Shown one piece after another: positions 3,601 through 50,665 of a DNA stretch of 64,000 nt; within the stretch, counting starts at the first letter, position 1; each line of letters starts with the position of its first letter. The DNA comes from Syncephalis plumigaleata (Eukaryota > Zoopagomycota > Zoopagomycetes > Zoopagales > Piptocephalidaceae). The notes under the pieces are model-generated. The model had not been told where the DNA came from. It did not search any database and saw only the letters and a list, made by a program, of their open reading frames with translations. Location of the stretch: NCBI GenBank assembly GCA_025201365.1, contig JAIXMF010000003.1:496001-560000 (forward strand), given 5' to 3'. Position numbers and translations under genes: made by a program.

Positions 3601-6220
3601 AATAATCATCGTGTACCACTTGACTATCATTATTCATATCCTCTTACATTACTAGATTATACATTACTAGTGAGCTAGTTATTATTCATTAGAGGTAAGC
3701 AGTCATTTTTCTTCTTCTTCTTCTTCTATCTTTCCTTATTATATCTTTGTTCATAATATGGAGTAATGATCCAAGAACCTCTGTCACTACCGTTGTGTAT
3801 GTTGCCGCATTGACAAGGCGTGCTTCCTGTCAAGTTAATACATATATACGCACACGTACTGTATAATAGCTATGAATCTAGTTGTACAAAGATTATTGCA
3901 CGTCTTGAAATGGTCAGTCTATATAGCTAACTCCATTTATGGGCGCTTTCCTTGTTTGTCACATATTACGACAATTATGGATTGGCGAAAGGGAATCACA
4001 CTAGGGACACATCGTACAGCAGGCCTTTTTGGGCCCATTGTCACTTTATTTAAGACGTTGAAAGAGATACAGCGGAGATGATGATGACTCCTCCGCCCTA
4101 TTCGTTGGCATCTCTTACCCATACACGCATACGCACACGCATACACACACACACACATATACATAACCCATCAACTCGCGTGCACATGCATTTGGTTGTT
4201 CCTTGAATACCTCTCTCTCTCTATTTCTATCTATTCTATTCTATTCTATTCCATTTATTCAACATAACCTTCTTGTTACTTCTGTACCGAATACTACCTA
4301 TCTATTAGTACTTTGCTCTTTTTACACTCACGTTATACTCGTGATTCCAGTCTTCAACCTCGCCTATATTGTTTCAGGCCCATTGATTGCTGGCTATATC
4401 AGCGGTGAATCTCCCTCCCTCGTGGAATGATTCTAGTGGGGCGCCATCCAATATAATTATCTATTTACCTCACTCGCTCACTCACTCATTCTATACTACA
4501 CTATACTATACTACACTATACTATTGTATACCCCTTGTCTCTAGTAGTAGCACACTGATTAATATTACTATTATTTACATATTATAATTAATTCTAATTC
4601 AAGGGACGTTTCTTTCTCGTCCGTCCACCTAATTACTTCACCTAATTCTTCTTCCACGGTAAGTTTGCAAATAGTGAAAATTGTCCCTGTCCCTCTATCT
4701 ATTATCTATCTATCTGTCTATCTATCTATCTATATATGCGTCTATGCGTCTATTCGTGTATCCATTTGTATATACATATATGGGGATGTATATGCTTTTG
4801 CCAACCGTGTCGAGTATCACAACAGAGTATGCATATGCAATGTGTATATCTCTCCGAATAGAGAATAAGCAAGAATGCTAAAAATACATACATATCATTA
4901 GCATTTCTAGCATGATAGTCGTTGCGTAGTATTGAACATACCTAGAACGATGGCCTCGTCTTTTGCGCTTCTCACGTTGTATCAACTTCATCCTTGCGAG
5001 AATTGCGACAATGCGTCAACCCTCGTGGGATAAAGTAGTGAATGTGGTATAGTAGTAGTAGCAGCAGTAGTAGTAACTTCTACCACTACTTGCTTAGTGA
5101 TAGTAATATCGTGTTCTTTAGCGCAAGTACCTTTCAGCTATATTGCATGTTGGTTTTACCGCTTTTAGTCGTGCTAGATTTCTATCCTTTTTTTCTTACC
5201 TCTTCTCTCCCCATTCCATGAATGTGCGTGTGCCATGAGTGACATACTCATTTCTGCTATTGCGGCATAATTCGTAGACGTATTTGGTGAGCGGCGATGA
5301 GACTGTGGTCCCAATCACGTTTCAGAAGCACATTCTTTTGATTCTCCGCTATCTGTGTAGCACTCCGTTTTGGGCATCATCGAAATGTAATTTCACTTGT
5401 CAAATCATCATGTTATTCCATGAGCTGACTAGTTTTTTTTGGACTATCCTTTACATTCTTCTCGTATCTTTTCAGCTTGATTTCACTATTCGCTACCTGT
5501 TGGCGACACTCGTTCGTTCGCTCGTCCGTTTGTTCACTCGCTCACTCACTTGCTCGCTCACTTGTCCGCCCGCTCTCGCTACTTCTTATTTACTTTTAGT
5601 TTATTATTACTTGTGTCGCTGCTCTTTAACGTATTTTATTCTCAGGTGTTGGTCCCTCGACTTGATACGCTACGTTTCGTTTCGATTGGCGTCTATTTTT
5701 TAGCATTTATTCTTATTATTACTACCATTGCTATTGCTATTATTATTGCTGCTGCCATTGGCGTTATTACTCGCATCATCTCCGGGGAACAATCCTTTTT
5801 TACGAATACGCCATTCTTAGTATAAATCATCTATGTGTTGAAGAGACGTCAAGGTTCCGCTTTGTTGCTACCCTTCCATTTTACAGTGTTCCACTTAACT
5901 GATAAAGCATCGAGTGCTTTTGACAATTGACTAGTTTCTCGACCTATCGACCTATCGTCCATTCTTATTTCACATAGAATATATACATACATGTATTCTG
6001 CTTTCTGCATACTTGCCCTTAAACATCCGCGTATACATATTGCAGAGTATTAAACACCTACACACACCTACACACACCTACACACACACACACACATCTA
6101 CACCCATACACCATCCACAAGTACCACCGACACTAGCTAAATTAAACTAACCAAAAAACAATACACACCTACTATACAGATTATATTACACTAGGCAACC
6201 ACTCGCCAATACCGTACACC
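667..6220. other. 5.5 kb intergenic region between divergent tyrosinases
   Basis: No convincing gene on either strand. Short open frames occur, but they are low-complexity and lack domains. Microsatellites include TG (1697-1721), AG (2061-2087), GAT (about 2570-2622), CGA/GAA (3484-3522), TTC (about 3707-3727) and CA (about 6055-6100). From about 4180 to 6200 the plus strand is pyrimidine-rich, which would suit a long leader of tyrosinase 2. Donor-like GTAAGT elements occur (for example near 4660), so spliced untranslated exons are possible but not shown. Confidence 0.6.
2061..2087. repeat. AG dinucleotide microsatellite
   Basis: Uninterrupted AG repeat of about 13 units within the tyrosinase 1/2 intergenic region. 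Confidence 0.95.
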
Positions 6221-7842
6221 ATGAGGAATCTATTTTCTATCGTGGTTGCCACGGCCACTATTCTTCTAACGTCCACCACTCTCGTTCACCAAGTCGACGC
6301 TAAATGTAGCTCCATACTAACACGTCGTGAAATTCGTGAACTTTCCGACTCGGATCGTCAATCATTCTTTGATGCAGTTAAGAAGATGCAAGCCGAAAAA
6401 CAACCCAACAAATTCGATGAATTTATTAATTATCACATCACCTATTCGACACGGGCTCATGGCGTACCCGCTTTCTTGCCATGGCATCGCGAGTACTTGC
6501 GTCGTTTCGACGAGCTCATCCGTAGCTACGGCAGCAACGTCCCTTTGCCATACTGGGACTGGGCCAGTGACTCGCAAGCACCAGAGACCGCGCCCATTTT
6601 CCAAGCCGACTGGCTCGGTGGTAATGGAAAGGGCTCCGATCGCTGTGTCACCGATGGTCAATTTAGCAGCTATAAGCCGTATTACCCGTCACCCGGTGGA
6701 TGTTTCTCGCGTGCATTCGACGGTAAATCCCCCAACACTATCGGCGCGCTTTACAGTTCAGATTTCGTAGCCGAACTACAAGCGTCCTCGAAGGACTACG
6801 ACACCTTCCGTCGTGGCTATGAAGGCACGGCTCACGCTCGTGTACACAACGCGATCGGCTCTTCATTCTCGTATATGTCGTCACCGGGCGATCTTATCTT
6901 CTGGTTGCATCACTCGCTTGTCGATAAGCACTGGGCGGAATGGCAGGCACTTGGCCATACCAACGACTACGGCCCGACTAGTGCCGACGAGAAACTTGTC
7001 CCTTGGGATATCACCGCGAAATCTACCTTTGATACCACTGCCGAGCCATTCTGCTACGTTTATAGCAATATGAACGCGCGTACAGCTGCTGCCAAGAATG
7101 CTCCAGTGCCAGATGCATCCGGCGATGATGATCTCGGTGATATGGGAAGCAACCTGCTTCGTCGTTCATTACAGGTACTTTTGCGTCGTCGTGGCTATGA
7201 AGCTCCTGCACCAGCCGCATCCGGTCCAGCCCGCACCACAGCTTGCGGTTGTAAACAACAGCAACAACAGCAACAGCGTAAGGATCCACTCGATTACCTT
7301 CTACCGGACAATTCCGATCGTAAGAATATACTCAGTCTCCGTGTTCCAATCGACACACCCAAGTGGTGGGCCAAGATGAACAACCTCCCTTACGAGGATA
7401 TAGAATTCTTCCAGGACCGTAATCGCAACTTGACCAAGGTGCTCAACAACATTCCCGGCTACATCTCCCAGTGTGCCATCTTCAACCGACCGGATATCCT
7501 TGCTAAACTCGTCAAGACCACCAAGGACTTTATCGGTTATCTTAACGGTAAGAAGATCGATTTCTCCATCAAGTGCAATGATGATCCTTTGAAGGCCGTA
7601 AAGGAGATTCGCGATCAAGTGGTGAAATTCGTCAAGACCTCACCCGATGCCTCGGAGGTTGTCAAGCTTATCGGTGCTGATGCGGCGAACTTGATTCAAG
7701 GCTACAACGGCGGTGTCTCCATCCCGACCTACTTGCTAAAACGAAGAATATTATTAAATCGGTGACAGGTAAAGAGGTCGAGGTACCATCGGCCGATCAG
7801 GTGAGCAGCATGATTGCCAAACTTGCCGGTAAATCATCGTAA
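6221..7842 (+). CDS. Tyrosinase 2 (one apparent 1-base loss near the 3' end)
   Basis: Secreted tyrosinase. The signal peptide covers about residues 1-27 (ends HQVDA). CuA histidines are H72, H80 and H89 (YHITYSTRAHGVPAFLPWHR); CuB is H205 and H209 (HARVHNAIG) plus the HH pair at 230-231 in FWLHHSLVDKHW. LPYWDWASDSQAPE is the usual family motif. A Gln run (about residues 347-353) links to a C-terminal region of about 180 residues with no recognised domain. The uninterrupted frame stops at 7765. One missing base near 7738, in an A run, would continue it in register as a Lys-rich tail ending MIAKLAGKSS with a stop at 7840-7842, which looks like the true end. The long CT-rich upstream region suggests an extended leader. 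Confidence 0.92.
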
Positions 7843-10299: not shown

Positions 10300-12178
10300 T
10301 TAGTTTATATATAGCGGTGTATTAGCACTAGTTGCTGGGGTCATTGGCATGTCAAGAATCTTCGTTTGTTTCATCGACACGTTCTTCTTATTGCAACCCT
10401 TAGTGGCAGGTGTCGCGACAATTGGTGTATCTGTAGCACCATTAGTGGTAACCGATGACTTTGTGGTACTATCGCTGAGGACACTGCCATTGCTGCCATT
10501 GCTGTTGTTGCTGTTGCTGTTGCTGTCGTTATCCTTGCTCGTATCTAGTGCTTGAGCAGCTTTAGTGGTGAACAACAATTCGGTGGAGCTAGAGGTAAAG
10601 TGCTTGAGTAGAGCCTTCTTCGTGCCCTCATACATATCCTTGACTTTCTTGGTGACCTTCTTGCCGAATGCTTTGAACTTATTAGCCACACGATCGAAGC
10701 CACAGCCCAAAATACGACGTAGAGCACGGGCACGCTCGCGAATATCCTTGATAATCTTAAGACCGGCTTGCTTGAACGATGACTTGATGCTGGAGATACG
10801 CTCAGTGATGCTAAGCTTGTGTCCTGCTTTCTTGTCAAGATCCGTGTTCGACACTTCCACCAGACGACCGTTGATGTAGACACGGAATACCTTCTCGGTA
10901 ACCACGATTTGTTCCAAACTCGTTTGATGATACCATAGAGCGGATGGAGACATGTAGCCCTCGACCTTATTCAATTCATTGCACATCACATTGATACGTT
11001 TCTCTTGATGACGCACCGCGGTAACGTTGACATTCATCATGATGAGCCATGGCTCGGGAATTTCCTCGGTTGGACGTACGACGGTCAAGAAGGAACGGTC
11101 AAGGCCGGATGGCGGTCCATTATACTCGGAGCCCTTCATGTCGACCGGGATGGTTAGAATGGACGAGGAATGAGCCATGTTCGGGTTAACATCACGACGC
11201 TGGAGATCGACCAATGAACGCTTGGCCAATGTGGCAGTAGCGGCTTCACCGACATTCTTGTAAATCTTGATTGGATCCTGATAGGTGTAGCACATACCGC
11301 CACCACGCACGCTCATGGCATCACGTACACGAACATGCGGGAAGGGCTGGGGCAAGGAATGATCAAGACTAGCATCACGATTCATGACCTTGTCCCTGCC
11401 GTAGTACGCGTAGACTCGATTGGGAGGATCGATCTTCTGCCAGTCATACCAGATCTTATCGATATAGGTGTGGTGCAGTAGAATATGGGATCGTTCGGAC
11501 TGAACATGGTGGTCATGGCACCACCGACGGCATTATGCACACGACCATGGGGTGTACCTTCAATTTCACGTTGGAAAGCATCCCACGTCTTGCTGTTGGC
11601 TACAATACTAGCGATGACATCGGTAATAGGATAGGGCTTCATCTTGCCGCCACCCTCGAAATTACGCCATAAACAGTCGGGATCCCCGGATCTACGGAAG
11701 AACGGCTTAAAGTCCTTGAAGTTACCGTCCTTGACACACTGGCTAGCACCACGACCATTGCCACCGTACATGGCATCAGTGAACACGATCGAGGTCTCGG
11801 GTGCTTGCGACACCGCTGACCAGTCCCAATAGGGCATGGTAACACCGGGCTTGTGTCGTTGCAACTCTCGCTCCAAATGGAAGATCATATAACGATGATA
11901 GGGCAGAAGACCGGTGTACCATGCGAGTAGCCAGAGTGATAATTGTGGAAGTAGGAGATATCGTCGTAGAACGATGGACGATCAGGCGCCGGACGTGTTT
12001 GCACAATGCGCATTGCATCGAAGAACTCTTTAAGCTCATCGGGGGTCAGATCGTTAATTTCCTTGCGTACACGCGGTGTTACACACTCCTCGGCATGGGC
12101 ACCTAGTTGCGATAGGGGACCGGTAGCGAGCAGTAACAAGACACTCAAGGCGACCATTGGTCGTTTGAGTAACGTCAA
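10300..12178 (-). CDS. Tyrosinase 3 (two apparent 1-base losses)
   Basis: Third secreted tyrosinase. The N-terminus MTLLKRPMVALSVLLLLATG is a signal peptide. CuA lies in YFHNYHSGYSHGTPVFCPYH, where the frame is interrupted once near 11900 in a C run. MPYWDWSAVSQAPE is the family motif. CuB begins HGRVHNAVGG and continues through NDPIFY, where a second one-base loss near 11479 occurs; the shifted frame reads LHHTYIDKIWYDW, the expected CuB end. A C-terminal extension of about 300 residues follows, Lys/Arg-rich (KKVTKKVKDMYEGTKKALL) then Ser/Asn/Thr-rich, without recognised domain. Gene identity is firm; both interruptions look technical because each side stays highly conserved. Confidence 0.9.
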
Positions 12179-17330: not shown

Positions 17331-18064
17331 ACCTTGACCACTGTATAGCATTTCAATTGTTAATATGTGTATTCATTCATTTACCATGATCATAATCAGC
17401 TACTATGCAATATCATAACATAACAGTAATTCGTCATTCACTGAATATTAACGACTTTTAGCAAATGTTCATGTTGACGACAATCAAATTATCCATTTCC
17501 GCTTTACAAGGCCTAGACCAACATGTTGGTATGTACACATGTATACATTTGTTTATATCTGTTTACCATGGGTCTGGCCATTGAACAATGTAGTACATGC
17601 TTGAGATCAGGTATTTATCACCTGCCACTTGATAGGCATATGACAATTGGTGGAATTAAATGTTGGTTAAGGTATAGGTTAAGGCAATAACAATTATTAT
17701 TATTATTATTATTGCTATACCATATGCTGACTAACAAGCAACCGTATGAATGAATGAATGAATGGGTCAGCGTGATCAGTAATCAACTTGATAATGGCAC
17801 GTAAATACCGATGAAGCGAGAAACCGTATAAACCGAGTAAATACCCCACAACAATTCAATTCGATATTCTATGCTGCTCATTACTCTCCATTGTTATTCG
17901 CGCTTTCTCTTTGTTCATGTTCGATTCTTGGGTATACTACTGCACCATCATCATCATCATCATCGCTAACTATATCATTCATTTTACCAATAATCCATCG
18001 AGTATATCTGTTTAAGGTTACGCTTCCCTATTATCGTCATTATTGCTTTACTAGTAACATCATT
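17331..18064. other. Intergenic region
   Basis: About 730 bp between two plus-strand genes, with an ATT repeat near 17695-17712 and GAAT repeats near 17747-17764. No gene seen. Upstream in-frame codons exist before the 7TM start at 18065 but begin with non-ATG codons. Confidence 0.5.
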
Positions 18065-19231
18065 ATGAAATTCTCGACATCACCACCCTATGCGCCCTAT
18101 TGTGATTTCTCTGTGAATTTGCGTCATTGTATTAATGAACGACAGCACGATATCATCTATTTGGCAGGTGTATTTACACATACGCTAGCGATAATCATAG
18201 GATGCTACACATTATTCCGCTTTCGTAACTCGGTATTATTATCGAATCATACGTCCACATTCATTAGTGGTCGTCCTCGTTTAGTGGCACGTCCCATGCT
18301 ACTACTCAATATACTGTCGACGTGTTGTATAGTCACACGACTTTTATACAATACCTTGTGTGCCTTCGACCTTATTCCTCGTTTGGCCGTTCGTGCACCG
18401 TTATTCTTCGTATCGGTAGCTTGTGGCTATTTATCGGCATTACTATTCGCCGTCGGTATCATTGAAATGGTACACTTGACGACGAAACAACTACCGAATT
18501 ACTACACGGTAAGGACATTTTGCTCGCTGGAGCTTCGCATTCTACCTGGTCGACTAGTGGCCGTATTCTTGGCAACATTCGTTGTTTGTCCGATATTCGC
18601 CACTATCACTCTAAGCATTATTGCCGGTATGCATGGTGATGTCGGCGATTGGGACGAGTATGTGTTGTATCGGAAAAGCGGCTGGTGTATTTGGGGTCTG
18701 AGCGTATTATGTATCGGTATGCTCTACGGATATTACGCGTTCATCCTAAGTGGCATCTTACGGAATATCATACTAAATACTTCAGGATGTCATGGTGTAT
18801 CGGCAAATAGTCTACCATCACCTTTGTACGAGCAGCAAGAAGAAGAAAAAGATACGAAATCGTCGAAGCTAATGTTCTACCTCAAATTGATCTATTCATC
18901 AAAATCAATACGTAAAACGATAGTCCCGTCTCATTCATTAAGTGTCGAATCGACACAATGGCATAACAGTAGTAGAACCGACGGTGTCCGATCACTCTTT
19001 CGTACATTGCTATTCCTTATGGCTTGTTTCACGCTCTTTGCCATCGTATCATTTGCATGGGGCATATCCCATGAAGTCATCATTACCACACCAGTATTAG
19101 GCGATATCTTTGAGTGTGTAATCATGGTTTTCCTATGGCCTGCACTCTCTATCATTGTTGTTATTCATCGTTGGAGAACGGAGATGTTACGCGAGAATCT
19201 ACAGGAACAAGAGAAACAATCATTGGTATAG
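18065..19231 (+). CDS. Seven-transmembrane protein 2 (fungal receptor-like)
   Basis: Predicted 388-residue integral membrane protein. Start taken at ATG 18065 (MKFSTSPPYAPYCDF); the frame is open further upstream only with non-ATG codons. Seven hydrophobic stretches are visible: DIIYLAGVFTHTLAIIIGCY, PMLLLNILSTCCIVTRLLY, LFFVSVACGYLSALLFAV, LVAVFLATFVVCPIFATITL, GLSVLCIGMLYGYYAFIL, LLFLMACFTLFAIVSFAW and ECVIMVFLWPALSIIVVI. A long hydrophilic loop of about 70 residues, rich in Ser/Glu/Lys, lies between the fifth and sixth, typical of GPCR third cytoplasmic loops. No family motif is recognised. Uninterrupted single exon. Confidence 0.7.
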   Translation: MKFSTSPPYAPYCDFSVNLRHCINERQHDIIYLAGVFTHTLAIIIGCYTLFRFRNSVLLSNHTSTFISGRPRLVARPMLLLNILSTCCIVTRLLYNTLCAFDLIPRLAVRAPLFFVSVACGYLSALLFAVGIIEMVHLTTKQLPNYYTVRTFCSLELRILPGRLVAVFLATFVVCPIFATITLSIIAGMHGDVGDWDEYVLYRKSGWCIWGLSVLCIGMLYGYYAFILSGILRNIILNTSGCHGVSANSLPSPLYEQQEEEKDTKSSKLMFYLKLIYSSKSIRKTIVPSHSLSVESTQWHNSSRTDGVRSLFRTLLFLMACFTLFAIVSFAWGISHEVIITTPVLGDIFECVIMVFLWPALSIIVVIHRWRTEMLRENLQEQEKQSLV

Positions 19232-19745
19232 TTGGTTTACAGCGTATTTACAGCGATATACGTCATGTGTATTAAAAATATTATTATTATTATTATTATT
19301 ATTATCAGTTATTTATACAAGTAGATTGATGTATGTATGACATGTCATGTTTTATTATTATTAATTTAAGATACTGGCGATAAAAGTGAAGCACACAAAA
19401 GAAGATATCGCAAAAGAATGTGAACAACTAAAAAAGAAGTAGTAGTTGAGAGAAGTAGACCTATAATCCATGCACATACACAAACATAAACATACATACA
19501 CTACTTATGTTATGAATGTGAATGTGGATGACGATGGTGGTGCAAATTCATGAATAAAACAACAAGATTGAAAAGAACTATTTAACATTATTGGCATCAT
19601 GGCTTTGACATTATTACTACGATAGAACAATGTAAATGCCATGTATAACTGCCATACACAAGTGTAGACCACCCTCGTCCATTGCGTCCACATCAACGCT
19701 ACAGACACTGCTGAGGTGGTTAGAGCGGATGAAAATGACATCAAA

Positions 19746-20889
19746 TTAGAGGGTGTTTGTCGTGACACTTGCGCTATTGGTAGTCTCGCCAAATAACAGT
19801 TCAAATAGTTGCTGTTCAGGCGAGCCATCACTGTTGGGGATGGCGTGATTGTTGTTTTCATGAAGTATTGAAGATGTTGCAGGCAATGAGGAGGATAATG
19901 AGGAGGACGACGACGATGAGGTTGACGGATTGAAGATGGTATGTGATGACACATCGGACAGAACGGTCTCCGCTTCTGGGAGATACTAGCGTCCTGCACT
20001 AGTACTGGGGATACTTCTGATCCGCCAAGACTGCCTGCCGAGGTCATCACATTATTTGAGGGAAGCGAGAAAAGTTGACTAAAGACCGAGAGTAAAGTGG
20101 AAGAGGAGGAAGGGAGGAAGAGGAGGCTAATAAATCATTATCACTTGATGGAACTATTGTCGATTTGCTATAATCACCATGCTCACTAACGGGCGTGGTA
20201 ACAGTGGCATTTGCCGAGGCGAAGAACGCTAACAGATCATTGACTTGCTTTGACAGCTGCTCAACCTGACCCATAAGCGATTCCTGTTTACGTTCAGCAG
20301 TTTCCGCACGTTGTTTCAATGCTTCATTATCGATGCGTAATCGTTTGTTGGTTTCCTCCATCTCTGCAACATGCTGCCGCTTACGCTCGCGCGATGCTTG
20401 AGCGGCAGCTCGATTACGCAGCATACGAACACGCGCTTGATCTTCGGGTCGACGTTCTTCGCCCTTACGCTTTCGACCGGGTTTCTGACGAACTGGCGCC
20501 TTCTGACTAGGAGTGGTGTCCTCGCACTGACTATCCTCGCCACTAGTGCTGCTAGTGACTTGGTGATGATGATGATGATGATGATGACTTTCATCGCTAA
20601 CATCGGTCATATCACTACGGGGACTAATCGCCGCGAACATAGGCAGCGATGTATCGTGTGCGTTGATGTAGGGCGAGCAAGTCGTTGACGATAAGTTCAG
20701 TTGGGCATCGGTAGCACTAGGCGCGAACATAGGTATGTCACTGGCGAATAGTTTGTGCAATAGGTTCCACTCGGTGCTACCGTTAATAGTGTCAAGTTCA
20801 CTCATAGTCACAGAAGACATTGGTGAAGTTGCTGGTGTGTCATCAAGATCCGGAGTGCTAGGTGAGATAGGATAGTTGAAATGGTCCAT
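19746..20889 (-). CDS. Hac1/XBP1-like bZIP transcription factor with predicted Ire1 intron
   Basis: Likely unfolded-protein-response activator. Start ATG at 20887-20889. Residues 102-109 are a His run; the basic region at about 137-172 (MLRNRAAAQASRERKRQ, signature N159...R167) is closest in form to Hac1/HacA/XBP1, followed by a leucine zipper to about residue 223. One apparent 1-base loss at about 20100-20125 changes frame; the continuing frame reads LLSVFSQLFSLPSNN and MTSAGSLGGS. A 41-nt segment, 19976-20016, is bounded by two Ire1-type hairpins (separate entry). Removing it joins GGS to EAETVLSDVSSHTIF and a Ser-rich C-terminus ending PEQQLFELLFGE...TNTL, stop at 19746. Without removal the frame runs to 19505. 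Splicing is predicted, not shown; bZIP identity is firm. Confidence 0.8.
19976..20016 (-). promoter_or_regulatory. Predicted unconventional (Ire1-type) 41-nt intron with paired hairpins
   Basis: Read on the minus strand. 5' site: stem GGAT/ATCC (20020-20023 and 20009-20012) with 7-nt loop CAG|AAGT. 3' site: stem TCTCC/GGAGA with 7-nt loop CAG|AAGC (loop 19972-19978). Both loops fit the Ire1 consensus CNG|(C/A)NGN known from HAC1 and XBP1 RNAs, with cleavage after the third base. Between them the intron forms its own hairpin, stem TACTAG/CTAGTA. Length 41 is not a multiple of three, so excision shifts frame. A GT-AG reading (39 nt, in frame) is possible but does not reach the activation-domain frame. 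Confidence 0.75.
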
Positions 20890-24359: not shown

Positions 24360-24579
24360 AGTGAACACAACAATATACTAGAAATAAAAAAGGTTGAAAA
24401 AAAGAAAAAACACATCCACTTTCTCTCTCGTATAAATCAAAATGTCCTCTTAATTGTTGGCACTGTTTGATTTATATACACTTACCACCACGTAATAACA
24501 ATAACAGCAATAACAATCGTTTTCCTTATTTCTCGTAAATCTACTTTGTATCTAGTGTTTACATAGCTACACGTCTAGT

Positions 24580-26484
24580 ATGTCTCATCCTACATGTAAA
24601 GTAGATGATTCTGCTGTTGAACAAACAAATGACGATGCAATGAACGTAGATGAGAGCAAAGCAAAGGAGGTAGTTCAAGATGATGTATCCATGACATTAT
24701 CTATATCGGCGAGTGCACCTATGGAGGAGATTGTACCGGCTATTACCGCGACCACTGATTTGTCTATGCCCGATGGCCCTATTAACGACGCGAATACAAC
24801 GGAAAACAATACGCTAACGGAAGATCTGGGCACATTGAGCAATGACGCGGCTTCAACCACGTCGACTGCAGCGGCAACACCACAAGCTACTCCTATGACG
24901 ATGACAGCCTCTATGATGATGGTTGATAGCGCCAATAGCAGTTTGCCTAGTACGCCAGGTGCCACCGAACCGACAACACTTGAGGATATCGTCGTCGGTT
25001 GCAAAGTGTTTGTTCGACTGACCGACGAGCAAAAGGCAGCCGGTGAGATTGTCGATCGTAAGGCGGAGATCCTCTCAATTCGTCCATCGATGTACAACCC
25101 GGGCAATGGCAACCTCGACTATTACGTGCACTATGTCAACTTCAACAAACGACTCGATCAATGGGTCGCGGGTGAGCGTATCGACTTGACGCAACGTATC
25201 GAGTTCCCGCGTAGTCGTCGCGGTAAACTTGATGGTATGACTGGTGGAAAGACCGCGAATGGCAAGGAAACGGCGGAGCGAGCGAAGCGTGGCCAGAAAA
25301 CGGTAGGTCGCGCCAGACCTGGCACCAAGACTAAACTGGGGAAACGTCAGGCGAAGCATAGTAAAGACGTCGACGTGGCCACACCCACGCCAATGTCGCG
25401 TGTTAGATCCGTGGATGTTGCGCCTGACACGCCCACTCCTAGTTCACGCTGGAAGTCGTCCAACGATGCTGATGGACTTGCAAATGAAGGAGAAGAAGAG
25501 GACTCGACATTCGTCGAAACAGAAGATAAGGAAGCGATAGGTGGAGATGATGAGCCGGAGGTATTCTCAAAGGAGAATGAACTGGAACGACTACGACACG
25601 GTGGATCGATGACGCAGTCGATCACGGAGATTGCTCGTGTACGCAATATCAATCGTATTCGTATGGGCAGGCATGAAGTGGACACTTGGTACTTTTCGCC
25701 GTATCCGCAAGAGTTAACATCGCGGGAGATCGTGCACTTGTGCGAGTTCTGTTTATCGCCGTTCGACAGTGAATTCCAATTGGTGCGTCATGCCAAGCGA
25801 TGCCGATTGCTACACCCGCCTGGTAATGAGATCTATCGTCATGAGGATATTAGTTTCTTCGAGATTGACGGACGACGACAACGCACCTATTGTCGTAATC
25901 TTTGCCTATTGAGCAAGTTGTTCCTTGATCACAAGACGCTCTACTACGACGTGGATCCCTTTCTATTCTACGTGATGTGCCAGACGGATGCGCATGGTGC
26001 ACATATTATCGGCTATTTCAGTAAGGAGAAGGATTCCGCGGAGAATTACAATCTAGCGTGTATTCTTACATTGCCTCAACATCAGCGTAAGGGCTACGGA
26101 CGTATACTCATTGCGTTCTCGTACGAGCTAAGCAAAGTTGAGGGTAAGCTTGGTAGTCCCGAGAAACCATTATCGGATCTTGGTCTATTGTCGTATCGTG
26201 CTTACTGGACGGAAGCTATCGTCGAGCGTTTAATCCGATTCCGTGGTGATGTTACGATAGAGGAGGTTGCCAATGCCACCGCTATCACACCGCAGGATGT
26301 GATGCATACGCTGCAAAGTATCGACGCGCTTAAATACTACAAGGGCCAACATATTATCTGTTTAAGTAACAAAGTGGTTGATGCGTATCGACGTGCCGAA
26401 CAAAAGAAACGACGCTGTATCCATCCGGAACTACTAGATTGGAAGCCACCGGTATTTACACCAGCTCAATTACGCTTTGTCTAA
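24580..26484 (+). CDS. ESA1: MYST-family histone acetyltransferase (Esa1/Tip60 type)
   Basis: Catalytic subunit expected in a NuA4-type complex, acetylating histone H4 and H2A tails in the nucleus. 634 residues, longer than yeast Esa1 (445) because of an acidic/Thr-rich N-terminal extension (1-130) and a charged linker (about 210-350). Chromo-barrel domain at about 134-208 (LEDIVVGCKVFVRL ... DYYVHYVNFNKRLDQWV). C2HC zinc finger at about 387-408 (CEFCLSPF ... HAKRC). MYST catalytic core includes autoacetylation lysine K452 in DHKTLYYDVDPF, catalytic Cys C494 in NLACILTLPQ, acetyl-CoA loop QRKGYG (502-507) and Glu528 in SPEKPLSDLG. Single uninterrupted exon. Confidence 0.96.
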   Translation: MSHPTCKVDDSAVEQTNDDAMNVDESKAKEVVQDDVSMTLSISASAPMEEIVPAITATTDLSMPDGPINDANTTENNTLTEDLGTLSNDAASTTSTAAATPQATPMTMTASMMMVDSANSSLPSTPGATEPTTLEDIVVGCKVFVRLTDEQKAAGEIVDRKAEILSIRPSMYNPGNGNLDYYVHYVNFNKRLDQWVAGERIDLTQRIEFPRSRRGKLDGMTGGKTANGKETAERAKRGQKTVGRARPGTKTKLGKRQAKHSKDVDVATPTPMSRVRSVDVAPDTPTPSSRWKSSNDADGLANEGEEEDSTFVETEDKEAIGGDDEPEVFSKENELERLRHGGSMTQSITEIARVRNINRIRMGRHEVDTWYFSPYPQELTSREIVHLCEFCLSPFDSEFQLVRHAKRCRLLHPPGNEIYRHEDISFFEIDGRRQRTYCRNLCLLSKLFLDHKTLYYDVDPFLFYVMCQTDAHGAHIIGYFSKEKDSAENYNLACILTLPQHQRKGYGRILIAFSYELSKVEGKLGSPEKPLSDLGLLSYRAYWTEAIVERLIRFRGDVTIEEVANATAITPQDVMHTLQSIDALKYYKGQHIICLSNKVVDAYRRAEQKKRRCIHPELLDWKPPVFTPAQLRFV

Positions 26485-26644: not shown

Positions 26645-28523
26645 TTACAGGAACAATTGATTAATATGTACAATGATGGTGTAGATGATGACAATTGAAC
26701 AAACAGTTGAAAGTAGATATGGCACTCTATTGTCAGCGCTTGATTTGTGCTTGACTTGCGGTGATGGATGTCCGCTTGGATCGACTTGCGCGCTACGCAG
26801 CACATCCTGACAAGAGGACTCCTGCTGTTTGGGCATAGTCGATTGGGCCGTGCCTCCAAAACTACATGTGCCGCCAGCATGCCTACTCTTGACGTAGACG
26901 GCGTTATAGGCCCATGAGAGTCGTTCTACCACGGAGCATCCGCTATACTTGCCATATCGTCCAGACATGGCATCCGTATTAATATCGCTACAATCGATTT
27001 GACCACACACGGTTCCTAGTGCTTTGCCGGCAGCAATGTTAATCTCCTCGGGCGATACACCCAATGAACTTTCGTTCACTTGGCATAAGAGCGTGTTCAA
27101 CATGCATCCGCATGCTTCCTTTGACGGTGTTGCCGGTAATCGATGACTGGAATGCCAACTAGACGTGGTTGCCGGACATTGCGATGCTTGTCGATGCTCC
27201 TTTAACGATTTTACTTTTACGCCCTAATATACAATTGCAATTCCGTAAGTAAAACAATGCATCTATTGCCGTTTATTTCCCGCTACATTACGTAATAATG
27301 ATGCTAATAACAATCACTTACCACAGGACGAACGGCAGCGTAAGCAGTCTTTAAATTGTGGAAATCTTGCATTTTGGCCACTTGTTTCTCGTTTACAATT
27401 TGCACGAGTCCATAATTATTCTCTTCGTTGCTGAACTCGTAGGCAATGCCACCGGATAGAACATCGGTCATTTGTGATCCGAATATCGCTTCAACCTTGA
27501 TGATGTCAATATGAGTTAACGTAACACATACGAGGATATTGTTTATTTATTTATTTACTTCATCACTTACCTCACCAAATGTCCTAGGCATCGATAGGTT
27601 ACAGCCGAATTCCGTAAGGAATATTGGAATACTATATTGCGCGAATTCCTCATGACGATCACGATAGCCAGATGTCTCAAAGGTGGCCTTGTTGCCGCAC
27701 CATTCGTAAAGGTTAACACCGTAGAAATCGGCTCGTTCTCCTGGTTCACCGCAGTTGAAGTAGTGTAGTAATTCCATACGGATCGTGGGATCGTCGTTGG
27801 AAGCGTAGCCGACCGGAAGGGTACGTCCACCCGCCCCTCTCTGATAAATGTAATGCTTAATATCACGGAGGGCCGCCTTGACGAATGCCGATGCCTTGGT
27901 GGTTTTCACCTCATTCGAGACTTCATTACCGGCGAGGAAGCCAAGCATATTGTCGTATTTAAGAAAGGCGTCGGCCGTCTTCTTGTAATGCTCCAGTAGC
28001 GTATAGTCATAGCTTGGCTCGAGTCGATTAATACTTTGTGCGGGCGTGGGTAGATCCAGTAATAGGTAGATGCCGGCATCGGCGAGTAACTTCATACACT
28101 TGTCGTGATTGGCACCATTATCGACCTAGTGATAGGACGGGCATTAACTGTGCGTGTAAATGATATCATCGATTATGTACTCGATTGTCTTACCTGGTAT
28201 ACACGAATGGTGTTAACGTTCAACTCCTTGAGTAGTGGTACATCCCGTTGACATCCTGCCTCGTCGGCGAGTGGATCGGTTATTCTCCCAGTCCCCCGCG
28301 GTTGATAGGCCACTCCTTTGACGAAGAACTCTTCTTGCGTGACACCATCAAACATCTTGTGCCCCTTAATGACAATGGGATTAAGAGCGTCAGCACCATT
28401 GGTTGAAATGAATACCAATAGTAGAAGAAGAGTAGAAAGTAATGGAATCAACGATGATCGCCACATGATCCTACTGAGGATCATGCGACAATGAATCATA
28501 TTAGCATTATTCGATAATGACAT
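26645..28523 (-). CDS. GH72 beta-1,3-glucanosyltransferase (Gas/Gel family) with CBM43-like domain
   Basis: Cell-surface enzyme that elongates and remodels beta-1,3-glucan. Minus-strand exons: 28194-28523, 27571-28115, 27322-27495, 26645-27223. N-terminal signal/anchor (SLIPLLSTLLLLLVFISTNG). GH72 domain: VKGVAYQPRG, LKELNVNTIRVYQ, acid/base Glu in GNEVSNEV, DFYGVNLYEWCG, nucleophile Glu in PIFLTEFGCN, GGIAYEFSNEENNYGLV. The C-terminal cysteine-rich part (CGCMLNTLLCQV ... VCGQIDCSDI ... GCSVVERLSWAYNAVY) matches the X8/CBM43 module of Gas1-type members. A final hydrophobic stretch (YLLSTVCSIVIIYTIIVHI) suggests a GPI-anchor signal. Divergent from the FKS glucan synthase gene. No frame breaks. 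Confidence 0.93.
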
Positions 28524-31500: not shown

Positions 31501-33867
31501 TGTTGTTGTTGTCCAAGAATAATAGCCATTGTATGCAAGCTAGTCGCACTGTTTTTATTTAATTTAATTTTATTGTCTAAAAATAACCCACCTCTCTGCG
31601 ATAGTTGCTCTGAGTATCCGGCTAACTACGCGTATCCACCTGTGTGCATAAAGCCGTTGGTCGCCTATCAGGTAAGTTTAGCAGTGGTTTGGCAGGCAGG
31701 CAAAGATAGATGGACAGTTTAAAAAACCCGTATGGAAAAGGCGATATGCGCTAGGGCGAGTCGAGTGCACCTTTGTTCTTTATTGCTATTATTCCCATTG
31801 TAACAACAAGAGCATCGCATCACTTTCTTGTGTTTGTTCTTGCTTGTCACAATAATCAGTAACAATAGATGTAGCAGTAGTGCTAGTATAATGAAGGAAT
31901 CATTTGATTGTCTCTAGTAGCATTTTCATTAGCAATTCTTTCTCTATCTCTCTCTCTCTCCTTTCTTTCTTCCTTTCTTTCTCTTTCTCTTTATTTCTCT
32001 TTTTCATTTTGGTTTCTTGTAGTGTATCATTTTTATTACACTGCGACAGCAATAAGTAGGCATCCTATGAGGAGACTGCATACATTCGTGGTAGTATTCT
32101 CCTGTTGAACGCATTTCATACTCCAATCAACTGCTACTTTATGGTTTCACATCATCACAAGTTGTGCATTCTCATTATTCATTTCGACTATTTCTTTTCA
32201 GGTATATTTATTACTGTGCACCACGTTTGATCTAGCCCTCTATTCATCGAGCATCTGTCCATAGCATTGCATTATTTCTCGGTAAAATACATTGCATTTA
32301 TTTACTTTGTAGTTTGCATATTACTAGTTGACATTATAACTAACCAGAAACATTATTATTATTGTTACTATTGTTGTTATTACTATAGTTGCCCCTATCT
32401 ATAAATCAATCCATTTCAGCAATCCTTACATCCGCTGGCATATTCTGCATGGTTCTATTATTTTTTATGTAAGTAGACACATCTAAAATGATATTGACTT
32501 CGTTTTATGCCATGTGTGGATTATTATGACTGTGGCATGCCATTATCTTTAGTATGGCTCTTCCTTTTCTTCTCTTTACCTATCTATAAGCTGAATATGT
32601 GATTGGATAGTGACACGTGCTATAGGCGTAGAGTGATGATGGCCTATTGTCTTTAGTAGTAGTAGTAGTAGTGCTGTATAGTCACCTTTACTGAATAGGC
32701 AATTACTCGTTTTCTCCTTCTTCATCCTATGCATAGTTATCATTACTGGTTAGCTGCAGCCTTCTGCACTATCATTCATGTATGCTCTCACTGACAAATC
32801 AATTGCGTGTTGGTGTAGCTTTATTCCATTAGCAAAATGAATGATCAATGTATGAGCATATATACATACAGAGAAAGCTATATAGATAGAGAGATAAAGA
32901 GATAAGAGAGCGAGACTGTGTAGGATGTATGCATGGCAGAAGGATGTGTGTGTATGTGTATGCGTGTATCATTCCTCCTATTTGTACTCTCGCCTATCAT
33001 TACTTCGTCGTATCTCTCCTCTCTCTCACCTTTTTAAAACCATAATTGCAGCTGCTGATTGTATGCCTCGATCCCCGTACAAGTCGCCTTCTCCTTCGTT
33101 TCTTTTTGTGCGCTCGCCTGCTTTTTCCTATATATGACAAGTGGACTACACTAATTTGCTCCTTATATACCTCATATCCACATCGACGATTACACTTGGC
33201 TTCTTCTTCTTCTTCCTGTTCCCCTTTTTCTCTTTCTAACGTCGCTCACTCGTAGTAGCTCTTTCATATGCTCTACGGTGACGCTTATTATTACTATTAT
33301 TAGTGTTAGCCACTAGTTTGACTGCACGCTCGTCTTCTTTCTGCAACGCTTTTATTTTACAGTTTCTTGTGGTGGCAAATAGTTGCTACTTACGCTTATA
33401 GCTAGCTAGTTCGCTCATTCATACGTTCCTTCGTTTCTTGTCAAAGACAACTTACTAGTTAGTCTACGCATTATTTGTGCTGTACATTGTGCACGCACAC
33501 ACCTCTCTACTATTTTGTCACTCACTATTCCCGTTTTTCTCTTGTTCCAATAAGAAGACGTATTACAGCGCATATATCGATTATTATTTCTTCTTCTTCT
33601 CCTCCTCCTTTATCACTACTGCGCTTTGCCTTAATTGTCTGTCGGGAACAGTCATTTCAATAAGTCAATGCTAACCACCATACCTGCAACAACATTTATT
33701 ATATCTAGTGTTGGTGGTAAATAGAGAAATACTATCATATTTTGGTTGGTCTTTTATTCCGGTTGACTACTTACAGTGCTTGCTTTGATTTTACTTTATC
33801 GACTAGTAATAGTAGTAATAGTAGTAGTAAGTAAGTAGTTCATACTTGCTACACTGAAAAAAGCAAC
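28524..33867. other. 5.3 kb intergenic region between GH72 and FKS genes
   Basis: No supported gene on either strand. From about 30100 to 33860 the plus strand is markedly pyrimidine-rich with CT, TTC and TCA repeats, and donor- and acceptor-like elements are scattered through it (for example GTAAGT near 30567). A long, possibly spliced untranslated leader of the FKS gene is a reasonable inference. Region 28700-30000 is AT-rich with TTG/ATG repeats (about 29653-29707). Confidence 0.55.
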
Positions 33868-36800
33868 ATGGCGGCAAACGAACAAAATAATGTTACACGG
33901 CAGCCATCACTGCCACGGTTTCGACCTCAGCCAAATTTACCCGCTCCAGAGTCAGCCGCTCGCCAGCCATCTCCTACAGAATCAGGCCGTGCTGTTATAT
34001 CACGCTCGGCTAGTTCCGATTACATTCGTAACAATACTTACAATCCCGCTAATAATAACAACACCAACAACAACAATGACAACTATTCATCTCCAGATCC
34101 TTATGGACGAGATAGTCCATATCATCATCAACATGAACAACGCAATAATAGCGATAGTAATAGTAATAGCACTTCTCCTTTGTTGCGCCGATCACCATCC
34201 GTGCCACATACACGATCCCATGGACAAACGCCGCCCTATCATCTACATCCCGATAATAGCTACTTTGGTGATCATCCTAATGGCGGTCAGTCTTCTGGAT
34301 CGCATGATGAGTCAAATAATTCCTATCTGCAACGACCTTATGAGCCGGTACGTAGACATTCCGCTGAAGATACGACACCGCCTCGTGGTGGTGGACGACG
34401 TAATTTCGACGGTAATCAGGAGCAGATAGCCATGCCAACTGTTCCGATGGTTGCAGTGTCGCCGACCACTATGCTCTCCCCTAATTCATCATCGTATCCA
34501 GTATCATCCCGAGCATCTCCCGTGTCTCCAGCTGGCGCCGCCCAAGCTTGGTCACCGTTATTAGGCGGTCAGAATGATCCGTATGCGGCAGATCCGCGTA
34601 ATCAACACACAAGTTGGGGCTCGCAAAACACCGTGGACTCCACCAATTCCGAGACACATCTACGTAACTCGCCACCAAACGCGTATGCCATGTCCGAGCA
34701 ACGCAGTAATCGACGTACCTCCGGTCTACGGGAATCATTTACGCCCGATGACTTTTATCAAAACCCTCATAATGCTCAAGCTTCCGTTTCGTCATTGTAT
34801 CCGCCCACCATGGCAGCTACGGCGTCAGTCGGCCTATCAACTGCAGCATCTGCACGTACTGGCGATGTTGATCTTCTAAGCGCGCTACGCGATACTAACC
34901 TCGACTCCAGTCGGTATGCAATGTTCTCGCCATCGTCCGAGTCACTCCTCGCGACAATGGAACATCGCAAATTGAGTAGAGGCGGTGCTTCACAGGCCAG
35001 TCTTTACACCACCGCTCAGTCGCAGGCTGCATCGGGTCGCGTTACTCCGATGCGACGTCGACAAGAGTCCAACTCGACGATGATGCGTGAAAGTTTGCCG
35101 GCCCCCGCTGACCATTGGTATCCCGCGTGGCCAGAGGATGAGTCCGAAGTGCCCATTAGTATTCGTGAGATTCGCGGCATCTTCCAACGACTACAACGAC
35201 GATTCGGTTTCCAAGTCGATAACGCGCGTAATCAATACGACGCATTTATGCGTATGCTTGATTCACGTGCTTCGCGACAAATGCCCGATCAAGCCTAAAA
35301 ACGCTACATGCCGATTATATTGGTGGACAACATGCCAACTATCGTAAGTGGTACTTCTGCGCCTTGCTTAACAAGGATATCCGGCCCATCAAACGTGGCG
35401 TGCTGGTTCCTCGTCAAACGATGGCGGTAGCGTGGAGGATCAGAAAAGTCTACCTGCTGCCGAGCATGTATGGCGAGTGAGAATGCAACGCATGTCACCC
35501 TACATGCGTGTACGACAGATTGCACTCTGGCTATTGATATGGGGCGAGGCAAGTGTTATCCGATTCATGCCCGAGTGTCTATGCTTCCTATTCAAGCTGG
35601 CCGACGACTCGTTAGATGTTTGCGAACCAGGCACCGAGGATGCGCAGACACGCTTCGACACGAATGCTTTCCTGAATGATGTTATCACACCCATTTACCA
35701 ATACATTCGAGAGCAAGCCTACGAGATTCGCGATGGCAAATATGTGAAACGCGAGCGCGACCACGCCACCACAGTTGGCTACGACGACTGTAACGAGCTA
35801 TTCTGGACGCGTGAGGGCATTCAACGTATTCGTATCAAGGGTCCGGCACGTACGCGTCTCGTGGAAATACCGGCCGAGGCTAGATACGCGCAATTAGGTC
35901 ATGTTGACTGGACATTAGCATTCCGTAAATCGTACAAGGAACGACGTACTTTCCTGCATTTGCTCGTTAACTTCCCGCGTATCTGGATATTCACGTTTGC
36001 TTCTTCTATTACTATACGATTTTCAACGCGCCATTCGTGTACGATCCCAACGGCAATGACCCCATCAGCGTGCCATTGACCATTGCCTCGCAGGGCGGTT
36101 CCATCGCTACCATCATCATGTTATTGGCCACTATTTGCGAGTTCTTCTTTGTACGCACTCGTTGGAATGCCTCGAGTATCCTACTAAGTCGTATCACCTG
36201 GCTCGTCATCATTCTCCTTATTCATCTGGCTCCCACCGTCTACATCATTAAGTTCTCGAGTAATGGCCTGGTCCCGTTAATCATTTCGATTGTCCAGTTT
36301 GTCTATTCAATCGTTTGTACCGCCATCTTCTCACCGTTCCTTCCGGTCGACTATTCCGACGTAATGGTAAATCAAAGTCGAAGCAAGATGCCAATCTAGC
36401 CATTCGCACCTTCACCGCTAGTTTCCCCACGTTGAAACCCACGGAACGTGCCGTATCCATTGGCATGTGGACATGCGTGTTCCTGTCGAAATTCCTCGAG
36501 TCCTACTTCTTCCTGGCCCTTTCATTTAAGGATGCCCTCAAGGCAATGATTGATATCCCGCAAACGGAATGTTCCGCGTTTGCCGGCATGCAATTCTGTC
36601 AAGGTATCGGCTACTTGACGCTAATCGTGGTGACCAGTCTCGACTTGCTTCTATTCTTCCTCGACACTTATTTATGGTACATTATCTGGAATGCCATCTT
36701 TAGCGTTTGTCGTTCCTTCTACCTCGGTATTTCCATCTACTCGCCATGGCGTAACATCTTTTCACGCCTACCAAAGCGTATCTACGCCAAACTTATCGCC

Positions 36801-39800
36801 AACAGTGATATGGCGATACGTGGTAAGCCACGCTTATTGGCATCTCAAGTGTGGAATGCCATTGTGGTGTCAATGTTCCGGGAACATCTCATTTCATCCG
36901 ATACCCTAGAAAAATGATGTATCAACAGGTAAGCAATAATGTCTGCTGATAATGAAGTATATGATAACAAATCACTAATGATGTATATATACACATGTGT
37001 GTATGTTATTTAATTATAGACACCAAGTGAAGATGGTCGTAAACAATTAAAGGAGCCAACATTCTTTATTGCTCAAGAGGACTCGTCACTCAAGGGAGAA
37101 TACTTTGAACGTGGCAGTGAAGCCGAGCGACGCTTCTCCTATTTCGCGCAATCGTTGGCCACACTTTTACCGGAGCCAATGGGCGTCGAGAGAATGCCGA
37201 CCTTTACCGTTCTGACGCCACACTATGGCGAAAAGATTCTACTATCGCTAAAGGAGATTATTCGCGAGAATGACAAGCAAACACGCATCACGCTACTTGA
37301 ATACTTGAAGAAAATGCATCGTACGGAATGGGATAACTTTGTCAAGGATAGCAAGTTGCTAGCGGAGGAAATGCCGGAATTGGCCGAACCATCCATTAAT
37401 CTCGGCAATTTAATGATTCACGCACGGCTTTGGGAACAGGTGCCGCCAGCGGTACTAATAGCTTGAATATCAGCGCATCCAATAGTGTGACCACAAGCGA
37501 GAACGGTCTCGTCGATGGTAGTCCACAGAGTAACACACAACTCGACGATATTGCTTATCAGACTATCGGTTACAAGTCGGCCACACCCGAGTTCACCCTA
37601 CGTACGCGTATATGGGCCTCGCTACGTTCGCAAACCTTGTATCGTACCGTGTCCGGGTTCATGAATTACTCGCGAGCACTTCGTCTTTTATACCGTGTAG
37701 AACACCCGGAATGCCCGCAAGGCATGCTAGGCGAGATGCACGCCGATCAACACGCGAAACGTAAATTCTGCTTCTTGATCTCCATGCAGCGTTACACTAA
37801 ATTCGATGCCGAGGAACTTGAATGCGTTGAATTCCTATTCAAGGCGTATCCCGATTTGCAAATTGCCTATCTCGAGGAGGAGAAATCGGAACAGGGCGGA
37901 TCGATTGAACCACGTATCTATTCCGTGCTCATTGACGGTCGTTGTGAAATCATGCCCGATGGACGTCGTAAACCGAAATATCGTATTCAGGTAAATGATA
38001 ATAATACTAGTAACAACGATAACAATGACAATACTAATGATATAATATTAGTTGCCGGGTAATCCAATTCTAGGTGATGGTAAATCCGATAATCAGAATC
38101 ATGCCATTATCTTTATGCGTGGCGAGTACCTACAATTGATTGATGCTAATCAGGACAACTATCTTGAGGAAGCATTGAAGATTCGTAATATACTTGCTGA
38201 ATTCGAGGAATTCGAAGGCGACGTCAATTGTCAGGATCCTTACGGCGAGGGTGTTCATTATCCACCGCCCGTTGCCATTGTCGGCGCTCGTGAGTTCATC
38301 TTCTCGCAAAGTGTCGGTGTACTTGGCGACGTTGCAGCCGGTAAGGAGACCACCTTTGGCACGCTGGCTCATCGTATCATGGCCAAGATGGGTGGCAAGT
38401 TGCATTATGGCCATCCCGACTTCCTTAACGCCATCTACATGAATACACGCGGCGGTGTTAGCAAGGCGACCAAGGGTCTCCACTTGAACGAGGATATCTA
38501 CGCCGGTATGAATGCCTTTGAGCGTGGTGGTCGTATTAAACACACCGAATACTTCCAGTGCGGTAAAGGACGTGATCTCGGTTTTTGTAGCGTGCTCAAC
38601 TTCAACACGAAGATCGGTACAGGTATGGCGGAGCAATTCTTGTCGCGTGAACACTACTACATTGGCACGCAACTGCCACTCGATCGATTCCTCACCTTCT
38701 TCTACGCTCATCCCGGTTTTCAGATTAACAATATTCAGATTATGCTCGCCACACAACTGTTCATGTACTCGCTCGTGCTTATCGGTGTTTTGGGCAAATC
38801 CATCCTAATTTGCGATGAACTACCGGAGAATGCATCGCCCGATGCACAACTAATGCCACCGGGCTGTTTCAATCTATGGCCAATCATATTATGGATGAAA
38901 CGCTGCGTCATCAGTGTACTCGCCGTGTTCTTTGTCGCTTTCCTGCCACTTTTCCTGCAAATGGTCACGGAGCAAGGATTCCTACGTGCACTCGCTCGTC
39001 TAGGCAAGCAACTCTTCTCCATGTCTCCATTATTCGAGGTGTTTGCCACTCAAATCTACTCGCATAGTATCATGTCCAATTTGAGTTTCGGCGGTGCTCG
39101 TTACATTGGCACGGGTCGTGGCGTGGCCATTACACGCATGCCATTCGCTACGCTTTATTCGCGATTCGCCGGCAGTGCCATCTATCTTGGTGTACGCCTG
39201 GTGTTGATGCTGCTATTCGCGTCGGTTACCATTTGGATTCCGCATCTTAGCTACTTCTGGATTACGAATGTTGCATTGTGCATTGCACCATTCTTCTTTA
39301 ATCCGCATCAATTCATTCCAAGCGAGTTCATCATTGATTATCGTGCCTGGCTACGCTGGATGTCTGCCGGTAATGTGCGATCCGAGTCCAACTCGTGGAT
39401 CAACATTGTCGCACTGCTCGTACACGTATCACGGGACATAAGCGTAACGACTTGGTGATAGTGCACGCGGTGTGGCCAGCGTACCTCGCGCCAGTAAGTT
39501 GACCATGTTCTGGACCGAATTATTCCTACCCATTGTACTGGCGTTCATCGTCACCTTCGCTTACGTGTTCGCTAAACGATACGAGGGATTCGATCAGGTG
39601 TGAAGCGTATCTGCATACTGGCCATTCTACCGATTGCATTGAATGCAGGTATGCTTGCCGTTCAATTCGTACTATCCATCCTACTTGGCAATACACTGGG
39701 TGCATTGTTCAAATCGTTTGGTAGCCTATGGCAGGCATCGCTCATGGTTGGGCCGTGATCAATCTAATCGGTACATTCATGATACTTTACATGCTAGAGG

Positions 39801-40366
39801 AATGGAGAAGCTCCTACACCGTACTAGGCGTCATGGCTATGGTGACCATTCAACGAGCGGTATTCGCTCTAATGACCACCTTCCTACTTACACGCGAATA
39901 CGATCAGGACGCCTCCAATCTAGCCTGGTGGACGGGTAAATGGCGTGGACGCGGTCTAGGCTGGGGCGGCATACTACAACCGCTACGTGAATACTGCTGC
40001 AAGATAGTCGAGTCATCATTGTTTGCCGTCGATTTTATCGCGGGACACTTTATTCTATTTGTGCTATCGCTATTCTGCCTAGTACCATGGATGGATCGTT
40101 GGCATACAGCCATTCTATTCTGGCTGCCTCCTAGTCGTCAATTCCGTCGTCCCATCTACTCAATGCGTGAACGTAGTCGTCGTCGTCGTATTTGCGTTGG
40201 ATATGGTCTACTGTTTGCGTTAATGTTCATCGTGATGGTGGCATTACTAATCGTGCCACAGATTAAGCCAAGTTTAGCACCCAAATCAATTACCAAATTG
40301 ATCAAGTGTAAAACACACCCACACATACACGCGTATACTATGATCATCGTTATTATTACGAACTAG
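33868..40366 (+). CDS. FKS1: FKS-type 1,3-beta-glucan synthase (about ten apparent 1-base losses)
   Basis: Plasma-membrane GT48 enzyme making beta-1,3-glucan from UDP-glucose. Exons 33868-36929, 37020-37990, 38052-40366. A low-complexity N-terminal region of about 400 residues is followed by the FKS1 domain (SRQMPDQA ... [32 protein letters not shown]) and the conserved core ([113 protein letters not shown]). Apparent one-base losses at roughly 35297, 35412, 36003, 36366, 36913, 37430, 39388, 39446, 39598 and 39729 split the frame; each flank aligns with yeast Fks1 order, with no nonsense changes inside frames. The last 20 codons after LIK are low-complexity, so the true 3' end may be spliced differently. 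Confidence 0.93.
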
Positions 40367-49516: not shown

Positions 49517-50665
49517 GTCTTCTTGTTAGATAATGGTTGAGGAAACGTGACGTGACGTATTGATTGTATAAACGTAAAAATGATAATGAGCTGTAAAACG
49601 AATAAAATAGAAATGCGGCGCTTGAACCATCATCTACAGCAGATTGTCCTTGACATTATAAGAAGTTTGGAGTGGGGCTGTCAATGCTTCAACATCGTGC
49701 CATCTATGGCCACATTTGTCACGTCAATATGGCGTTGCATCAAGTTATTCAGGATTAGGTATGTACTGTAGTGGTTATTCCAAGTCCTGCCAATACCAAT
49801 TTGACATTCCGTCACATGTGCTTGCAATCCTAGCTATGACTGCAATGGATGTTTCATGTTGTATATGTACTCCTCAAGAGTACCTTTACCATTTGTTCGC
49901 ATATTGATACATTGTGCTTCACATATATTTATTGGTCCAATCTGTAACATAAACCAGTCATTATTCCATTCATCATACATATTTTTCTGTACCTATTGGG
50001 AAAGAAACTGTTAATGGCTCATGATATTTACTCGATATTTGTTCTTGTGAAATCACTAGAGGACTATTAGTGAAGCAAGAGCATGGTTATTTTCAGGACT
50101 GTTTAAACAATGCCGTAGAAGATGCGACTTGTATTCATGTCTCCTGCCTAGTGATTATTATTGGGTAGTTGCTTGCTTATGCTTACGGCTAAAGCATCAT
50201 GAATGTATCCAATAAACCTTTGGTAATATTGAAGAGAGCTTACATTGATAGCATAATGATAATGATGCTGAAAACAAGAACGATACGGCGAGTGTATAAC
50301 TAGTATGAAGCCATTAGATCAAACATATAAGCAAACTGTTTATTCTAGTAATAGTCGAGAATAGTTGCAATGATGATGATACAAACCTATACTTCCTCTC
50401 CAAGATGGGTGGTATCTACTGGGCTGATCTAGCAAGGTACTTATCCAACCAATGAAACGGAAAAACTATAGTAAGGAAGAAAAAGAGAAAGAAGGAAATG
50501 TATATGTGATGACATCAAAGAGCATTGTGCATCGTACGAAAAGCGTATGATTCAAAAATACAAAGCGGTCAAACGTATCATAGGCATGGGGGACCTGTGC
50601 ATCAGTCATCGGTGCATTCCAGTCAACCAGACAGGTTCTAGCCTCCATTAGTATGATTATTGGTA

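Follow-up and report, generated by a model that had tools for sequence, protein, structure and literature searches.

The 64,000-nt stretch of DNA analysed here (hereafter the window) carries, on its minus strand, what is quite probably the HAC1/XBP1 counterpart of the mycoparasitic fungus Syncephalis plumigaleata, with an mRNA containing a 41-nt Ire1 intron (19976..20016) predicted from the sequence. The genus belongs to the Zoopagales, in the Zoopagomycota. An earlier note had proposed that an mRNA of the HAC1/XBP1 type carries an Ire1 intron at this site, and the proposal is favoured by the loop motif, the geometry and the type of gene, as well as by the Ire1 and RNA ligase genes found in the assembly and by a protein from a second species.

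The switch would operate as follows. In calm cells, the message would be translated through the site, giving a long protein that ends in a conserved hydrophobic segment, which may keep the growing polypeptide, and the mRNA being translated, at the endoplasmic reticulum (ER). Upon ER stress, Ire1 would cut both 7-nt loops after CAG and an RNA ligase would join the cut ends, leading to a change of frame, to the loss of the hydrophobic tail and to a short Ser-rich tail with PEQQLFELLFGE, which would yield the active transcription factor. Cutting, ligation and stress dependence are, taken jointly, to be expected with good probability, and ER tethering by the unspliced tail is a more tentative proposal, somewhat less probable than not.

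The HAC1-like gene and the splicing machinery

The bZIP frame of the gene (20047..20889, minus strand; 280 residues and a stop as assembled) starts from the ATG at 20889, lies upstream of the hairpin sites and encodes a bZIP domain (PF07716, E 1.6e-7). Nine bZIP matches were obtained in the S. plumigaleata assembly (32.6 Mb in 383 contigs), eight of which were scanned as loci of about 3.1 kb, the HAC1-like gene, a single-copy locus, being among them. Compared with these eight loci, the Penicillium oxalicum hacA protein is nearest to the HAC1-like gene (55 bits, versus 43 for the next locus), and the named relatives outside Syncephalis, among 8000 candidates scored, include hacA and HAC1 proteins with modest scores. 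From these similarities, the gene is likely an ortholog of hacA/HAC1.

The assembly encodes Ire1, as a protein kinase piece (E 1.8e-24) followed in order by two Ribonuc_2-5A halves (E 2e-24 and 4.5e-10). Upstream of the kinase lies a frame without a Pfam match in which a hydrophobic span and a kinase-like start were recognized by eye, and a PQQ-type repeat match lies further upstream, below its cut-off. Two near-identical loci encode a fungal-type RNA ligase of the RNA_lig_T4_1 family. Neither the Ire1 search nor the ligase search gave a match in the 14 control genomes. Near-identical locus pairs are found on different contigs of the assembly (L016/L017, L018/L019 and L004/L005, with 19, 36 and 36 mismatches, respectively, over 3.1 to 3.4 kb), a pattern that two haplotypes or two strains would give.

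The gene is convergent with a 478-codon open frame (17795-19228, plus strand), resembling a multi-span membrane protein by eye, which has no Pfam match at 1e-5. The window also contains, on the plus strand, a tyrosinase gene (6146-7762; PF00264, E 1.6e-34), a MYST acetyltransferase (24556-26481), a 1,3-beta-glucan synthase gene (33835-40366, spread over several frames as judged by eye; PF02364 at 38052-39455, E 1.6e-228) and a DIOX_N oxygenase piece (60348-60890). On the minus strand are a tyrosinase-like frame recognized by eye (11382-11981), a GH72 glucanosyltransferase (27550-28125) and a prolyl oligopeptidase (47675-49525).

Twin Ire1-type hairpins

Two perfect stems with 7-nt loops and predicted cuts 41 nt apart had been described at this site, and both were re-derived on the minus strand. 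Hairpin 1, the 5′ site (GGAT-CAG|AAGT-ATCC, 20009..20023, the bar marking the cut), has a 4-bp stem and a predicted cut between 20017 and 20016, while hairpin 2, the 3′ site (TCTCC-CAG|AAGC-GGAGA, 19967..19983), has a 5-bp stem and a predicted cut between 19976 and 19975, each cut falling after the third loop base. Both loops, CAG|AAGT and CAG|AAGC, satisfy CNG|(C/A)NGN, the specificity of yeast Ire1 reported from measurements with mutant HAC1 loops (PMC8104961); an A at +1 is thus allowed, since the measured motif includes it. The inner hairpin noted between the two sites, TACTAG/CTAGTA (19984..20004, within the intron), was located with its arms at 20004-19999 and 19989-19984. The intron length had been contrasted with the 20, 26 and 252 nt of other Ire1 introns, but 41 nt lies within the range of 19 to 848 nt reported for fungal Ire1 introns (PMC6222058).

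Reading frames across the site

The frame of hairpin 1, read without excision, forms an unspliced frame of 209 open codons (19505..20134), a length kept open in 0 of 2000 shuffles; its 238-nt tail by itself stays open in 209 of 5000. Excision of the 41 nt joins two open frames, as had been claimed, moving the stop from 19507-19505 to 19748-19746 and giving the Ser-rich C-terminal part of the spliced frame (19746..19975). The earlier note did not mention that, in the sequence as assembled, the bZIP frame meets a stop (20049-20047) 30 bases short of the first predicted cut and therefore does not enter the switch; it reaches the unspliced frame only via a one-base slip near 20116, within a pyrimidine tract (20100..20134), which could be an assembly error, a real mutation or programmed slippage.

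Comparison with Syncephalis fuscata

The sole other close relative found is a database gene model from S. fuscata (BDF19DRAFT_186353, 499 aa; hereafter P0002); among 886 candidates, no further relative of the unspliced tail was found, and a search by DNA in viral contigs gave none. Residues 1-254 of P0002 match the bZIP frame and residues 261-426 match the frame of hairpin 1, with 82 of 175 columns identical to the unspliced frame (E 3e-36). This second match starts upstream of the site, runs through the intron (GGSEVSPVLVQDASISQKRRPFC in the window versus GGSEVSPMLVQDTSISRQRRPFC in P0002) and the part that overlaps the spliced frame, and continues beyond the spliced stop, with 31 identities in 59 residues there. 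The similarity across the site and the tail suggests that the unspliced message is under constraint as protein, which chance does not explain, because so long a frame was never kept open in the shuffles.

The two P0002 matches abut at 20116, leaving no room for an intron that would join the bZIP and switch frames. In the stretch searched, 12 GT-AG combinations preserve the frame between the two. A spliceosomal join at 20186-20035 was rejected, as it would remove a piece conserved in S. fuscata; this join was used in the query that found the deposited model discussed below, and the P0002 comparisons are independent of it.

Back-translation of P0002 indicates which hairpins its residues permit. 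Hairpin 1 is allowed by 8 codings, with residues identical to those of the window. For hairpin 2 only 2 codings work, each giving the loop CGG|CAG(C/A) with a C at +1, and the hairpin stays permitted despite the change of both loop codons (QK to RQ). There is no gap between the two sites in P0002, so that both hairpins are permitted at the spacing of the window, the forms being GGATC(N)GA(A/G)GTATCC and TCTCCCGGCAG(C/A)GGAGA with cuts 41 nt apart. Both outer hairpins are permitted at this geometry at 1 of 477 positions in P0002, which is the homologous site, and at 1 of 8320 positions in 22 other retrieved proteins. When synonymous codons were drawn at random for P0002, both outer hairpins formed in 0 of 400,000 draws. 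For the inner hairpin, the P0002 residues allow 7 pairs, though a V to M change forces base changes in one arm; a 7-pair inner hairpin is permitted at 208 of 12,952 positions in 33 retrieved proteins. The S. fuscata residues thus permit all three hairpins, which is permission and not proof, the shared residues making part of it automatic.

An ordinary intron as an alternative

The hairpins could be incidental to an ordinary spliceosomal GT-AG intron at 20177-19976, which is exactly what a deposited database gene model contains (P0001, "hypothetical protein BDF22DRAFT_741062 [Syncephalis plumigaleata]"). The first 237 residues of P0001 are those of the bZIP frame of the window and its end is the spliced-frame tail. 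Its 202-nt intron has the ends ATG|GTGATT and TCTCCCAG|AAG, joins open frames, and coincides exactly at its 3′ end with the second predicted Ire1 cut; a donor TTA|GTGAGC at 20186, used with the same acceptor, likewise stays open. However, the stretch that would be excised encodes protein conserved in S. fuscata, in a frame shared with the region behind it, and P0002 reads through the site in this unspliced frame, which counts against P0001. Such an intron would also leave the twin Ire1 loops unexplained. On balance this explanation is unlikely, and we infer that the 202-nt intron of P0001 is an artefact of the frame slip.

The frame slip and the integrity of the gene

The slip near 20116 bears on a second alternative, in which the circuit existed in the genus and this copy is broken by a real mutation, the protein ending at 20047 and Ire1 cutting leaving it unchanged. 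The stop of the bZIP frame as assembled is in agreement with such a loss, as are the change of frame between the S. fuscata matches at 20116 and the presence of a single locus in the assembly. Yet behind the slip the two frames remain open, the unspliced one over all its 209 codons, the hairpins are intact, and the slip falls within a pyrimidine tract. Paired copies of other loci in the assembly also differ by single-base gaps in runs; given these gaps and the nature of the tract, an assembly error is easily imagined. A broken copy is accordingly considered very unlikely, and a gene whose mRNA carries the Ire1 intron is the preferred reading.

Rarity of the hairpin pair

Single hairpins (a stem of 4 bp or more closing a 7-nt loop C.G..G) were searched on both strands of the window, giving 4 on the minus strand and 8 on the plus strand, for a shuffled expectation of 5.3 on both strands together. 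Pairs at most 900 nt apart are found once on the minus strand, which is the pair at 20023-20009 and 19983-19967, and once on the plus strand, with a spacing of 249 nt (20007/20256). The plus-strand pair, antisense to the HAC1-like gene, is taken as chance. Over 200 dinucleotide shuffles, a window contained on average 0.02 pairs, both strands together, for spacings of 15-60 nt, and 0.21 for spacings of 15-900 nt. Not a single such hairpin occurs in the seven other scanned bZIP loci of the assembly, among which are two near-duplicate pairs.

The 81-nt fold is unexceptional by energy (z -1.17, 20 of 200 shuffles equal or better). Taken alone, hairpin 1 is weak (-1.3 kcal/mol, 49 of 200 shuffles equal or better), hairpin 2 reaches -5.1 kcal/mol (21 of 200) and the inner hairpin -8 kcal/mol (12 of 200); in the 7-nt loops, RNAfold adds a pairing of loop bases 1 and 6. 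Rfam gave no match over the whole window at the gathering score, and its sole match in 19700-20300 at E up to 10 was sR12 on the plus strand, a chance match.

That the hairpins and open frames arose by chance and have no function would fit these ordinary energies and the existence of the plus-strand pair, but is the most improbable of the explanations considered, given the rarity of pairs at 15-60 nt in shuffled windows, the position of the pair towards the 3′ end of a bZIP gene and the conservation of the unspliced frame in S. fuscata.

The tail of the unspliced protein

Past the spliced stop, the unspliced frame encodes a hydrophobic, aromatic segment (19622..19696, minus strand), which is conserved in the two species and present in this frame only. 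For a membrane span, the usual cut-off of the 19-residue hydropathy mean is 1.6. The best means of the tail fall below it in both the window (1.34) and S. fuscata (1.38), and the interfacial sums over 25 residues are -10.1 and -6.7, respectively. The tail, which has no Pfam match, looks interfacial and by these values resembles the HR2 segment of the unspliced XBP1 protein (XBP1u) more than a clear membrane span.

Hydrophobic stretches are also often found behind the zipper in the other HacA-like database proteins retrieved (P0003-P0033, mostly ascomycete where named). Among these 31 proteins, P0005 was left out as its zipper was not located, and 21 of the 30 remaining tails have a 19-residue mean of at least 1.18, so that a hydrophobic tail is not peculiar to Syncephalis. 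Because it is so common in HacA-like proteins, a hydrophobic stretch by itself is weak evidence of function. A CDLQ motif failed to sort the 30 tails into spliced and unspliced forms; should P0003-P0033 represent unspliced forms, a tail like HR2 could be a general fungal feature.

Relation to known Hac1/XBP1 switches

In metazoan XBP1, the spliced protein is the longer form, unlike in Syncephalis, where it is the unspliced one. The 41-nt intron and the A instead of C after both cuts also differ from XBP1, which has a 26-nt intron. The two genes are alike in the bZIP domain, the twin 7-nt loops, the short intron and, as predicted for Syncephalis, the frame change. In both, the unspliced frame, translated in XBP1 and probably so in Syncephalis, has a hydrophobic segment towards its C-terminus; that of XBP1, HR2, is reported to bring the XBP1u message to the ER (PMC9217131, PMC4138184). 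In plant bZIP60, which has a 23-nt intron, splicing removes a hydrophobic tail of the unspliced frame (PMC4891664), as it would in Syncephalis, but this tail is a membrane span whereas the Syncephalis segment looks interfacial, and the intron lengths differ.

Among fungi, HXL1 of Cryptococcus has a medium-length intron of 56 nt with CAG at both borders, as in Syncephalis. Unlike in Syncephalis, the unspliced form of serotype B is the shorter, with 406 residues versus 426 for the spliced form, and its authors report that the unspliced product was not detected (PMC3154848). Ascomycete HAC1/hacA genes share the bZIP domain and the twin hairpins at the intron ends (PMC6222058), and the named database relatives of the Syncephalis gene are hacA/HAC1 proteins. 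For budding yeast HAC1, an intron-imposed repression and a bipartite element of the 3′UTR are described. To our knowledge, no ascomycete HAC1/hacA gene is known to have an unspliced tail conserved beyond the spliced stop.

The Syncephalis switch is thus probably a new lineage and a variant of the Hac1/XBP1 switch, the new elements being, as far as seen, its occurrence in the Zoopagomycota and an unspliced tail whose conservation extends beyond the spliced stop. In open PMC, no paper was found that combines Syncephalis with the unfolded protein response, or HAC1, Ire1, Mucoromycota and intron, and the titles and abstract starts among the matches listed mention no Zoopagomycota case of the switch. 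A Hac1/Xbp1 intron survey (Hooks and Griffiths-Jones, cited in PMC6222058) may include early-diverging fungi.

Implications

The Syncephalis case would extend the switch to the Zoopagomycota. How the HAC1 message is delivered to Ire1 outside budding yeast among fungi, and whether the unspliced protein has a role, is a question that has been raised for Aspergillus (PMC7580959). The conservation of the unspliced tail in two species, where no second frame overlaps, offers a direct handle on the role of the unspliced protein. It is conceivable, although somewhat doubtful, that a fungus outside the Dikarya keeps the animal and plant design, in which a conserved tail of the unspliced HAC1 protein anchors the mRNA that encodes it at the ER and is removed by Ire1 through a frame change. 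If this were true and general, co-translational tethering would be ancestral and the RNA-element mode of budding yeast would be derived.
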